From: Candidatus Sulfotelmatobacter sp.
Lineage (GTDB): Bacteria; Acidobacteriota; Terriglobia; Terriglobales; Acidobacteriaceae
NCBI GenBank assembly: GCA_036500765.1
Contig: DASYBM010000016.1
Coordinates: 434,001 to 498,000 of the forward strand
Direction: 5' to 3'
Length of the DNA: 64,000 nucleotides
Made by a program: the position numbers and the translations under genes. Within the stretch, counting starts at the first letter, position 1, and each line of letters opens with the position of its first letter. The notes beneath the pieces are model-generated. The model saw only the letters and a list, made by a program, of their open reading frames with translations, was not told the DNA's origin and ran no database searches. Of the stretch, positions 48,933 to 51,283 are shown piece by piece.

Positions 48933-49586
48933 ATGGCAAACGCCGTCGTTTCGCAAGTCAATCAGCCAACTATCCCGGCGGTCTCGGGTATAGGCACTCT
49001 CGTCGCTGTCGTTAGTTCAATCTGGTTCGGACTGGTCTTAATCCTGGGCGCATATGGCGCGTTCGTTACCCCAGCAGGGGCGCCGCCGCTTGCATTGCTG
49101 ATCGGTCTAGTGGCTCCCCTGGCGCTCTTTCTCGTCGGGTATTGGACCATCCGATCCTTTCGCGAATTTGTTTTGTCTGCGGATCTTCGCCTCATTGTCG
49201 GAATGCAGGCATGGAGATGGGCGGGCTTCGGATTTCTCACGTTGTACACCTATAAAGTCTTGCCCGGAATCTTCGCCTGGCCGGCGGGGCTCGGCGATAT
49301 GGCGATCGGCGCGACTGCCCCTTTGGTATTGGGAGCTCTTCTGCGCCGGCCTGAGTTTGCAGCAGGCAACAGATTCTTGGCCTGGAATATCTCTGGCATT
49401 TTGGACCTCACTGTCGCCGTAAGTATCGCGGCGATTGTCCCGTTGTTCGCTCCCCAGTTGTTAGGATCGGTCTCAACGGCTCCCATGACACAGCTTCCGT
49501 TGGTGCTGATTCCAACATTCTTAGTGCCGGTGTTTTTGATGCTGCACCTGACTGCGCTCTTCAAGGCGCAGAGTCTCGGCAGATAA
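48933..49586 (+). CDS. Multi-pass membrane protein under HxlR control
   Basis: ATG 48933 follows GAGG; the longer frame runs over the operators and is unlikely. The 217-residue protein has six hydrophobic helices (starting IGTLVAVVSSIWFGLVLILGAYGAFV) with short loops and few charges; LLRRPEFAAGNRFLAWNISGILDLTVAV is in the last third. I do not recognise the family. It is divergent from, and probably regulated by, the HxlR protein, so it may be induced by a toxic or redox-active compound. Confidence 0.75.
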   Translation: MANAVVSQVNQPTIPAVSGIGTLVAVVSSIWFGLVLILGAYGAFVTPAGAPPLALLIGLVAPLALFLVGYWTIRSFREFVLSADLRLIVGMQAWRWAGFGFLTLYTYKVLPGIFAWPAGLGDMAIGATAPLVLGALLRRPEFAAGNRFLAWNISGILDLTVAVSIAAIVPLFAPQLLGSVSTAPMTQLPLVLIPTFLVPVFLMLHLTALFKAQSLGR

Positions 49587-49636
49587 GCGGTTAAAGCCAA
49601 TTTTCAAATGGCGCGGCCCTTCGGGGCTGCCCACCC

Positions 49637-49705
49637 TTTTCGGATTCGGGAATCAGAGGTTGCCCCACCCTTGTCTCCGCGCACTTTGCGGAGACAGGGT
49701 GGGAT
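49637..49705. repeat. About 70-base dispersed repeat with GTCTCCGC stem (copy 1)
   Basis: Starts TTTTCGGATTCGGGAATCAG, followed by GGTTGCCCCACCC and a hairpin GTCTCCGC-loop-GCGGAGAC, ending GGGTGGGA. The same unit lies inverted at 56159-56228. Confidence 0.8.
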
Positions 49706-49770
49706 TGCCGAGTGAGCCTACGAGGCCGAAGCAGCTCACCCTCCCGCAAGTTCCAATTCGGGAATGAAAA

Positions 49771-50409
49771 GCGTCCGAAGGTACGCCTGATAGTAGCCCG
49801 GCGTTTCAACGCCGGGTAAGCTGGACGGGATGAAGCTGCGTCCCGTAGGGACGCCTGAAATGGGGTCCGCGTGGCGCACACTTATATCTCCGATCTCGTG
49901 CATTGTGTTTTTTCGACCAAGCTCCGGCGTAATTTAATTACAGCGGAAGTGCAATCCGATCTGTGGGCCTTCGTCGGCGGCATCGCTCGGAAGAATGGAT
50001 TCAAGGCGTTGATTGTCGGCGGGACGGAAAATCATTGTCATGCATTGTTGTCGTTACCTGCGACCATGCCGCTGGCAAAAGCCATACAACTCGTGAAAGG
50101 GGCTTCATCGCACTGGATGAACGTGAAGCACACCCGAGAGTTCGCGTGGCAGGAAGGGTACGGGGCGTTCACGGTGGGAATTTCGCAGAAGGACGATACG
50201 ATTGCATACATCCGGTCTCAGGTGGAGCATCATCGCAAACGCACATTTGAAGAAGAATTTGTGGCGTTTTTGAAGAAGCACGGCGTGGAATACGATCCGC
50301 AGCACGTATGGGGATGATTCAGGCGTCCCTACGGGACGCGGTTCCGCGGCGTCGCCGTCTACCCGGCGTTGGAAACGCCGGGCTATTGTCAGACGGTCCC
50401 TCCGGGACC
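49771..50409. mobile_element. Y1 transposase flanked by mirrored REP-like hairpins
   Basis: Left arm 49771-49859 holds a hairpin (GCGTCCGAAGGTACGC then CTGATAG), a second one beginning TAGCCCGGCGTTTCAACGCC (49794-49818), a 19-base spacer and a third at 49838-49859 that begins GCGTCCCGTAGGGACGCC. Right arm 50318-50409 has the same three in reverse order and orientation. The inner pair is a perfect 22-base inverted repeat. The element looks like an IS200-type or RAYT unit carrying its own REP hairpins. Confidence 0.8.
49871..50317 (+). CDS. tnpA: IS200/REP-associated (Y1) transposase
   Basis: A 148-residue HUH Y1 transposase. The start MAHTYISDLVHCVFSTKLRR (GTG codon) is the canonical opening. 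The histidine-hydrophobic-histidine motif is in ENHCHALLSL, and the catalytic tyrosine is in the C-terminal helix (DDTIAYIRSQVEHHRKRTFEEEF). The frame is intact, so it may be active. It sits between perfect 22-base inverted hairpins, 11 bases from its start codon and directly after its stop. Y1 enzymes nick and join single-stranded DNA at hairpins. Confidence 0.93.
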   Translation: MAHTYISDLVHCVFSTKLRRNLITAEVQSDLWAFVGGIARKNGFKALIVGGTENHCHALLSLPATMPLAKAIQLVKGASSHWMNVKHTREFAWQEGYGAFTVGISQKDDTIAYIRSQVEHHRKRTFEEEFVAFLKKHGVEYDPQHVWG

Positions 50410-50469
50410 TGCGCCCGTGATAGCCAACGATATTTTCGAGCGAGAAGAGCGGAGCGCAGCGACGCGAAG

Positions 50470-50562
50470 GGTCCCAGAGGGACCACTGAAAATAGCCCAC
50501 CAGTTCACTGGCGGCCCTGCGTCACCCCAGCACAAGAACCGTGTCCCGTAGGGACGCCTGAG
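50470..50562. repeat. Further REP-like hairpins downstream of the transposase
   Basis: GGTCCCAGAGGGACC, then ACTGAAAATAGCCCACC (50470-50497) and a near copy of the inner hairpin beginning GTGTCCCGTAGGGACGCC (50541-50562). Both have the palindrome + CTGA + TAGCCC layout of the arms around the transposase. Confidence 0.75.
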
Positions 50563-50842
50563 CCGCACCCTTGGCTGTCAGCAGCATCGTTCGCACACAA
50601 CGAAGACCGCGTTGTGTGTGAGCCACCTGCCAGTCCCACTGGCGGGGACGCCTGGTGCTATGCCGGGCGAACTGGTATTCTATGTTTCCGAAAGCCCACG
50701 CGGGCAACGTTTGCGTGAGACGCATTTCTAGGTAAATCCCTTCCTCCTTTCGCGTCTCCTCTCGATCCCACCAGCAGCAATTCACCGGGAGAGAGCGCAG
50801 AAAAAACCAAATACAAACATGCGGTCTTTAAGGAGGAAGACC

Positions 50843-51283
50843 ATGATGATAATTTTAGTGTATTGGCAGATAAAGGAAGACAGGGTGGAAGAGTTCGAGA
50901 AGTACTGGAAGACGCTCATGAACGTGGAACTCAAGAAAGGTTTCTATCGGGAGATTCTCACGAAGCCCGTAGCTATGTCGGACCCGAAATTCAACACATT
51001 CAGCATTACCGACCGCAATTACCGTACGTATGTGAATATCGGCTTCTGGAGCACCGTCGAGGACTTTGAAAGAGCAGTTCAAGAAACGCTGCCCAAAGCA
51101 TCTCAAACAACTGATCCCGCAAGCGGACGAACAAGGCAGGCTATCGAACTCGAACCCTTCGAGTTTAAGCTGCGTGAACGTATCGTTTTAACACCCATTT
51201 GGGAGCGTGGTGGTTCTCTGCCAAATGTTTCTGGTCTGGAAGATGGAGCGGTGGAGTCACTTTTGCCCGAAATGGCGGGATGA
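50843..51283 (+). CDS. Hypothetical protein, possible alpha/beta-barrel dimer
   Basis: ATG 50843 follows AGGAGG by six bases. The 146-residue protein starts MMIILVYWQIKEDRVEEFEKYWKTLM, resembling an antibiotic-biosynthesis-monooxygenase-like fold with FNTFSITDRNYRTYVNIGFWSTVEDFERAVQ as a second beta-alpha unit. No catalytic motif is visible. It is cytoplasmic, with no signal. It converges with groEL, a terminator between. Function unknown. Confidence 0.65.
   Translation: MMIILVYWQIKEDRVEEFEKYWKTLMNVELKKGFYREILTKPVAMSDPKFNTFSITDRNYRTYVNIGFWSTVEDFERAVQETLPKASQTTDPASGRTRQAIELEPFEFKLRERIVLTPIWERGGSLPNVSGLEDGAVESLLPEMAG

Follow-up and report, generated by a model that had tools for sequence, protein, structure and literature searches.

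Mirrored three-hairpin units around a subclass-1.2-like Y1 transposase gene: the Acido-Lenti-1 'RNA' as the probable DNA substrate of a REPtron-like system

Introduction

Among the closest described relatives of the locus reported here are the REPtrons, which consist of a transposase of the RAYT/TnpA-REP class 2 together with its REPs and REPINs. They share with this locus a small Y1 HUH transposase whose genes have diverged within the genome, inverted palindromic units beside the gene that also occur dispersed in the genome, mirrored doublets of these units, and nTAG bases beside the hairpin. The locus differs from them in that its protein lies on the IS200 side, with Y-x3-Q-x2-HH and no NP, in that its unit has three hairpins (here called B1, A and B2) while a REP has one, and in that its hairpin family is a different one, present in several phyla. 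With its asymmetric linker and its nTAG/CT bases, such a compound B1-A-B2 site would set the locus apart from REPs and IS200/IS605, which have a single hairpin. The insertion sequences of the IS200/IS605 group (IS608, ISDra2) share the fold and the catalytic residues with our protein, but no near-identical multicopy transposase was found in the source genome and the ends are mirrored triplets. The mirrored doublet is the plan of the REPIN in the part of Bertels and Rainey 2011 (PMC3116915) used here. According to the available part of another study (PMC8266576), REP transposases cut at CT beside the hairpin, and GTAG is important and guides the choice of site in one system.

Among the TnpA-Y1 proteins, subclass 1.2 is given with WQ, Y-x3-Q-x2-HH, an HUH motif DH[IV]H, a length of 148 aa, hosts that are mostly Cyanobacteria/Bacteroidetes, and no REP in the portion of Quentin et al. 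2018 (PMC6006769) considered here. The same portion describes TnpA-Y1 class 3, which has Y-x4-Q, W[TA], a median length of 178 aa and high-copy hairpins with a CnGA foot in Acidobacteria and Planctomycetes; the hairpins described here likewise occur in these phyla and in high copy, and a CTGA lies in their linker. The TIRYT of Acidobacteria, as far as presented in the consulted part of Di Nocera et al. 2013 (PMC3733652), are also Y1 transposases flanked by inverted repeats, and the 26 described TIRYT are placed in class 2 by Quentin et al. (PMC6006769, same portion), whereas the three class-2 genes examined in the source genome have no units. The Rfam family RF01687 (Acido-Lenti-1) is typed as sRNA in Rfam and was rated a probable RNA in the part of Weinberg et al. 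2010 (PMC2864571) available to us. In the portions covered of the mostly open-access literature, which excluded preprints, no link of Acido-Lenti-1/RF01687 to a transposase was found, and Acido-Lenti-1 was not named in work on Acidobacteria REPs and transposases.

Here we describe a locus that is very likely a REPtron-like selfish unit, in which a Y1 transposase gene with the subclass-1.2 signature carries mirrored B1-A-B2 blocks, probably its recognition sites, at both ends. The A+B2 part of the block matches what Rfam calls Acido-Lenti-1 RNA, which would here be read as a DNA recognition element with B1 as a third hairpin.

Results and Discussion

The locus and its hairpin units

The window, that is the whole stretch of DNA analysed, comprises 64,000 nucleotides from Candidatus Sulfotelmatobacter sp. 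(contig DASYBM010000016.1). The original prediction had described in it an intact transposase gene at 49871-50317 with three mirrored hairpins on each side and a perfect 22-base inner inverted repeat, and all these features were confirmed at their places. The ORF of tnpA (49871-50317, plus strand; supported by Pfam PF01797, NCBIfam IS200, an AlphaFold2 model and motif alignment) has a GTG start and encodes 148 aa. The inverted repeat lies at 49838-49859 and 50318-50339 and is 100% complementary; the first base of its right copy is immediately 3' of the tnpA stop codon, and its left copy ends 11 bases upstream of the start. Outward from tnpA the order of the hairpins is B1-A-B2 on either side, and the left and right triplets are mirror images. 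Hairpin B1 (TCAG-GCGTCCC-TAC-GGGACGC) is followed by about 20 bases and then by hairpin A (CCCGGCGTT...AACGCCGGG), after which come a linker that starts with CTA and contains TCAG, and hairpin B2.

In the left triplet, on the minus strand, the inner hairpin B1 occupies 49838-49859 together with its CTGA, which is TCAG when read outward; this hairpin is half of the inverted repeat and has copies in the genome. The middle hairpin A with its GTAG (49793-49816; hairpin 49797-49816) was recognised by sequence and DNA fold, and the outer hairpin B2 with the adjoining CTGA (49771-49790; imperfect stem 49771-49786) by sequence and RF01687 search. In the right triplet, on the plus strand and placed by sequence, B1 with TCAG lies at 50318-50339 directly 3' of the stop codon, A followed by CTAT at 50362-50386 (hairpin 50362-50382, with exact genome copies), and B2 at 50395-50409. 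The bases 5' of hairpin A are GTAG on the left (49793-49796, directly 5' of the hairpin on the plus strand) and ATAG at the right and third units, so that the GTAG directly 5' of the hairpin known from RAYT-associated REPs has its counterpart in the window at the left A only. As for the 'two more units' predicted at 50470-50562, the hairpins are present, but they are really B2 and B1 of a third triplet (50470-50561, minus strand), partly decayed and in the opposite orientation. By sequence its parts are B2 (50470-50484), a degenerate A (50496-50515) and B1 with CTGA (50541-50557), the last with 1 mismatch to the inner unit; the degenerate middle hairpin has a DNA-fold z of only -1.3 and an RF01687 score of 24 bits.

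Matches to GTCCCGNAGGGAC in the window, counted at up to 2 mismatches with palindromes scored on both strands, number 18, compared with 6.2 +/- 2.75 in shuffles, none of 100 of which reached 18. The middle-hairpin half-pattern TAGCCCGGCGTTT occurs 18 times in the window when up to 3 mismatches are allowed, against 20.8 expected, and thus shows no enrichment; only its two exact copies stand out. Folding of the triplets as single-stranded DNA gave z = -4.4 for the left and z = -3.7 for the right one; in the minimum-energy fold of the left triplet A and B1 form, and the imperfect outer hairpin B2 is absent. Chance hairpins were ruled out by the GTCCCGNAGGGAC shuffles, the DNA-fold z values and the near- versus far-flank hairpin counts given below.

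The transposase

The Y1 HUH fold and catalytic residues are present in the tnpA product, as seen in profiles, alignment and model. It matches Pfam PF01797 (Y1_Tnp) with 82.6 bits and NCBIfam IS200 with 57.8 bits (cut-off 55), and its AlphaFold2 model (pLDDT 90) has the ISDra2 and IS608 transposases as best PDB matches, with the REP transposase 4er8 at rank 30. Its motifs are NHCH as HUH, WQ (AWQEG) and Y113-x3-Q117-x2-H120-H121 (YIRSQVEHH); in the alignment of 25 homologues Y113, Q117 and H121 are invariant and H120 nearly so, while the HUH consensus is DHVH. The protein carries the TnpA-Y1 subclass 1.2 signature, an assignment made by motif and length against the published description. It shares with the subclass, as set out in the portion of PMC6006769 considered, the 148 aa, WQ, Y-x3-Q-x2-HH, the conserved C-terminal part and the low copy number, and differs from it in the HUH motif (NHCH instead of DH[IV]H). 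The likening of the protein to RAYTs in the original prediction does not hold in the strict sense and was rejected, because the class-2 Y-x-x-x-N-P motif is absent in the motif alignment and Y-x-x-x-Q-x-x-H-H, of the IS200 side, is present. TnpA-Y1 class 3 was also rejected, since motif spacing and length differ (Y-x3-Q, WQ and 148 aa here). The class-2 Y-x3-NP motif was found in three other Y1 genes of the source genome (G000:C16:533502, G000:C16:511014 and G000:C17:250361; loci L271-L273), which have no Acido-Lenti-1 units.

Match to Acido-Lenti-1 and copies in the source genome

When the region 49500-50900 was searched against 4227 RNA families, RF01687 matched over the left A+B2, the right A+B2 and the third triplet. 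Acido-Lenti-1, as this family is called, is associated with group II introns. The left match (49772-49816, minus strand) scores 37.8 bits, above the family cut-off of 37, and the right one (50362-50409, plus strand; 25.5 bits) and the third (24 bits) are below it; with R1, a covariance model of our own, the three score 51, 37.7 and 18.1 bits (E 0.019 for the third). The left and right matches point away from tnpA, and hairpin B1 falls outside the 46-position Rfam model. The hairpins are no private set but match a known family present in several phyla.

RF01687 has 25 matches at E <= 1 in the source genome (5.04 Mb), of which 18 reach E <= 0.01 and 7 lie above the cut-off. Of the 18, five are at two flanked transposase genes and 13 elsewhere in the genome. 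These two subclass-1.2 genes are 56% identical and both are flanked by units. With up to 3 mismatches allowed, the source genome holds 6 copies of the 21-base inner unit (3 outside the locus) and none of the reversed pattern, and exact middle hairpins occur three times, one of them outside the locus. By eye, the scattered copies form families that share stem and B1 with one resident transposase or the other, and some match neither. In control genomes RF01687 was found in 0/14 at E <= 0.001, 1/14 at E <= 0.01 and 4/14 at E <= 1, with none above the cut-off. The copies elsewhere that the original prediction had asked for thus exist in the source genome (the 18 matches) and in 66 of 247 genomes of the phylum, the adverse outcome of hairpins without other copies in the genome or its relatives did not occur, and the view of the locus as a complete transposase-plus-substrate unit is supported.

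Units at other transposase loci

The model R1 was built of 34 units from strong RF01687 matches, and its rows include the left window unit and at least two (L018 and L091) that flank transposase genes. Unit rows with E > 0.01 were dropped before counting in the two locus sets that follow. Among 31 transposase loci from the source genome and the phylum, a unit lies within 300 bp in 25 and a mirrored pair in 19 (R1, E <= 0.01). A second set consists of 80 homologous loci, the best 80 of 583 relatives from a scan of GTDB genomes; at least five of them are also in the 31-locus set, and the set leans towards the query because it was found via one peptide pattern and is the best of 583. In this set units are mirrored on both sides at 49 loci, present on one side at 14 and in the other orientation only at 10, and there is none within 200 bp at 7. 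In other words, units occur within 200 bp at 73/80 and read outward at 63/80 of these best loci. The nearest units read outward in 110 of 130 cases (p = 3e-16, with the two sides of one locus not being independent), and at the 80 loci the unit density falls from 4.64 per kb in the first 200 bp beside the gene to 0.11 per kb at distances above 600 bp. Counting perfect hairpins (stem of at least 7) without the model yielded 176 over the 27 kb of near flanks (at 67/80 loci) and 1 over the 25 kb of far flanks. At the 13 loci that have no good model match, a GC-containing hairpin was seen on at least one side in 12 and on both sides in 8, by a looser rule and with no far-flank control. Hairpin units are thus regular at these loci, which contradicts the description 'no REP' in the portion of PMC6006769 considered and not the subclass membership.

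By record label, the hosts of mirrored loci are Acidobacteria, Planctomycetes, Verrucomicrobia, Calditrichaceae, Bacteroidetes and Ignavibacteria, and mirrored loci also occur in MAGs labelled Lentisphaera and Deltaproteobacteria. Those of Terriglobus albidus DSM 26559 and Algoriphagus ratkowskyi DSM 22686 (L213 and L216) are among the mirrored ones. The link is weaker in Bacteroidetes, where of 14 loci 4 are mirrored on both sides, 1 has units on one side, 3 in the other orientation and 6 none. While the hosts given for subclass 1.2 in the considered portion of PMC6006769 are those named in the Introduction, the 80 best loci come by record label from Acidobacteria, Planctomycetes, Verrucomicrobia, Bacteroidetes and others, and no cyanobacterial locus is among these best 80 of 583. 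The MAG that holds one subclass-1.2-like transposase locus (L181) carries the title Klebsiella pneumoniae and may be a mislabelled or contaminated bin.

Specificity for the subclass

Control loci were searched by Pfam family and not by the query protein. The 30 loci found in this way divide into 15 with the subclass-1.2 motif, 9 with NP, and six (L241, L242, L245, L248, L262 and L268) that were left out because of a truncated or unclear motif or one of another class; of these six, L242 and L245 do carry units, and the match at L241 is only weak (17.7 bits, E 0.005). Because only 4 of the first 12 class-2 loci lay in RF01687-positive genomes, eight control loci were added, of which L390, L391, L392 and L394 have NP, L387-L389 have Y-x3-NA, and L393 is a fragment with no clear motif; all eight lack units at E <= 0.05. 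Units anywhere in the locus (E <= 0.01) were found at 12/15 subclass-1.2 loci, and at 0/16 class-2 (NP) loci, namely the 9 found by Pfam, L271-L273, and L390, L391, L392 and L394. When only RF01687-positive genomes are considered, which hold all of the 15 subclass-1.2 loci except L254 and seven of the NP loci (L259, L271, L272, L273, L390, L391 and L392), the counts are 12/14 versus 0/7 (p about 3e-4, calculated by hand). The loci L387-L389 are three Y1 genes of one RF01687-positive genome (G029), with Y-x3-NA replacing Y-x3-NP, and have no units.

Co-occurrence across genomes

In the phylum Acidobacteria, the transposase (E <= 1e-5) was found in 58 of 247 genomes and RF01687 (E <= 0.001) in 66. 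RF01687 is present in 52/58 transposase-positive versus 14/189 transposase-negative genomes (odds ratio 108, p = 2e-33); 52 genomes thus have both, 6 the transposase without RF01687, 14 RF01687 without the transposase, and 175 lack the two. A hand count of genera gave 35 with both, 2 with the transposase only, 10 with RF01687 only and 93 with neither, that is 35/37 transposase-positive versus 10/103 negative genera, on which a Fisher test was also run. The p-values of these comparisons are too small since genomes share ancestry, and the 2x2 table scores presence only, not copy number, because the RF01687 search of the phylum scored about 23 candidates per genome. The RF01687-positive genomes in which no subclass-1.2 transposase was detected are G036, G062, G140, G156 and ten others; in these 14 the gene may have been lost, may have diverged or may fall into an assembly gap. 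Furthermore, among 20 genomes picked from transposase loci outside Acidobacteria, RF01687 is present in 18 (E <= 0.01; absent in the other 2) and above the cut-off in 15, and the matches reach 125 per genome, with 84 in Planctomycetes bacterium Pan216.

Matched ends and the signature of the stems

The two ends were compared at 35 loci with both units in an alignment of the best 150 matches. Within a locus, the A stems of the two sides agree to 94%, compared with 60% between loci, and 27/35 pairs are identical; for the B2 stems the values are 87%, 65% and 21/35. The similarity within loci was reached in 0/2000 permutations for either stem. The unpaired bases best conserved beside hairpin A are CTA (98, 100 and 89%), the complement of nTAG, and the fourth base varies. 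These features bear on the reading of the hairpins as terminators working in both directions, or as insulators, that would protect the transposase gene against transcription from outside and have spread otherwise, for example in miniature elements with terminal inverted repeats. It would account for GC-rich hairpins directly before the start and after the stop, for the TTTT after the left outer hairpin on the outward strand, for the A hairpin of the third triplet, which fits a terminator pattern, and for the triplets within terminal inverted repeats in some genomes. But a terminator does not need the conserved CTA, the stems on left and right match within loci, class-2 Y1 genes are without units, and terminator-like sites are not enriched (49600-50700 holds 2, just one of which is in a triplet, against 1.3 expected). 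By this last count terminators were rejected, and we regard the reading as extremely improbable.

Both stems covary strongly, with 95 double-change cells and 0/500 shuffles reaching this. RNA helices commonly accept G-U pairs, not A-C. In the stems G-U pairs make up 1/441 cells in one count and 7/1904 in a larger one, and in the latter, which covers Acido-Lenti-1 units only, A-C mismatches number 17 versus the 7 G-U (p = 0.06). These pair cells were taken from model matches only, which leaves a residual bias, and the RNA priors should favour G-U. G-U being rarer than A-C fits the prediction for a DNA hairpin, and on the same count a plain sRNA was rejected. Acido-Lenti-1 might still be a real small RNA, for instance an antisense RNA or attenuator of the transposase gene that is carried along, with the transposase neighbourhood as a by-product. 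The strong covariation, the persistence of the hairpins while their spacers vary, the sRNA type in Rfam and the rating as probable RNA in the available part of Weinberg et al. 2010 (PMC2864571) speak for it. On the other hand, DNA hairpins should covary just as much, wobble pairs hardly occur, the units that mirror each other across the gene would have to be transcribed from opposite strands, and copies are scattered as mirrored doublets. We therefore consider a small RNA improbable.

Gene-less doublets

Among the 150 RF01687 matches listed for the 20-genome set, 39 neighbouring pairs are up to 250 bp apart. Of these pairs, 34, from five genomes, are in -/+ orientation, and 32 of the 34 are spaced 141-157, in four genomes of three phyla by record label. 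With this spacing the doublets are too short to hold tnpA, a gene of 444 bases. In two of these genomes and in G140, a genome of the same phylum as the window, the doublet sequences read B2-A-B1, a short centre, and B1-A-B2, which is the plan of the transposase unit minus the gene. In the source genome no -/+ doublet is among the 25 RF01687 matches apart from the transposase units. The spacers between hairpins vary widely among the doublets of one genome, which suggests that many copies are old or that only the hairpins are maintained.

An ordinary IS200-type insertion sequence, in which the hairpins are subterminal ends and the scattered copies are dead remnants of whole insertions, has in its favour the ISDra2 and IS608 transposases as best structural relatives and the common layout of hairpin, gene and hairpin. 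This explanation is nevertheless very unlikely, since the source genome has two diverged genes (56% identical) versus 18 RF01687 matches (E <= 0.01), and since doublets fixed near a spacing of 150 in several genomes are not random internal deletions. In addition, the ends here are mirrored triplets, unlike those of IS200/IS605, which are non-mirrored.

Proposed mechanism and implications

We think it likely that the Rfam 'RNA' throughout bacteria is the three-hairpin DNA substrate of a multi-phylum REPtron system run by subclass-1.2 transposases. In such a system, the hairpins would fold when the DNA is single-stranded, for example on the lagging strand during replication, and a transposase dimer would bind the folded hairpins. 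The nTAG bases beside hairpin A could serve as a guide, with the cut made at the nearby CT, and cutting might move or copy the block, or the mirrored pair of blocks, to new places, leaving solitary blocks as remnants. Hairpin A with nTAG would presumably be the core site, and B1 and B2 accessory sites or sites of a partner subunit.

What appears to be new is a REPtron-like system in a Y1 subclass described without REPs and with a probable substrate that Rfam classes as an RNA. This reading would give a role to two orphans, namely a little-understood Rfam RNA family and a subclass described without REPs. In the consulted part of a 2026 study of Tannerella (PMC13298647), mobile elements were sought beside protease genes with no evidence found, and Acido-Lenti-1 'ncRNAs' downstream of two protease genes were suggested as possible regulators; if our reading is true, hits such as these would be traces of mobile DNA. 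It would also add a further lineage with REP-like systems, beside class 2 and class 3, and the compound three-hairpin site permits a clear biochemical test.

Mobility and carrier elements

The tnpA gene is beside groEL in the sister species too, at the same place, which suggests that it was inherited there and not recently moved. In the groEL neighbourhood tnpA was found in 2/30 loci only (source genome and sister), and units without tnpA are in at least two other loci, L301 and L309. The gene between tnpA and groEL (50840-51280) has no Pfam match at E <= 0.001 and is present in only 2/60 genomes of the family, the source genome included, which makes it a poor synteny anchor. As for the empty sites that the original prediction had proposed to look for, an approximate unit-less site exists in the sister species, and no exact empty site was found: the scattered triplet L028 of the source genome is missing at the matching intergenic place in the sister, where poor alignment of the flanks leaves the ends imprecise. 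In an orthologous comparison of G036 and G195 the unit is in both. Two genomes that are about 95% identical, G165 (L277-L278) and G123 (L285-L286), have near-transposase unit arrays in both orientations that differ in copy number and can be likened to BIME arrays; as far as the coordinates show, these are the same unit arrays over about 160 kb.

Triplets inside outer inverted repeats of at least 15 bases were seen in 9/20 cases in G121 (L098-L110), 3/16 in G084 (L129-L131) and 2/7 in G140 (L135-L136), compared with 0, 1 and 0 in far-window controls, and two other genomes gave 0/14 and 0/14. Since these triplets lie within terminal inverted repeats, some of the copies may owe their spread to a different transposase, and the amplification in G121, which comes partly from such elements, is not counted as evidence of TnpA movement. 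At L102 the element seems to split a B-type hairpin, and 5 bases may be duplicated there. Together with the outer inverted repeats this suggests that other miniature elements carry triplets along. Furthermore, some doublets in G316 and G140 share flanking sequence beyond the hairpins, as seen by eye (the automatic outer-repeat test gave 0/14 and 2/7), and may sit in larger repeats.
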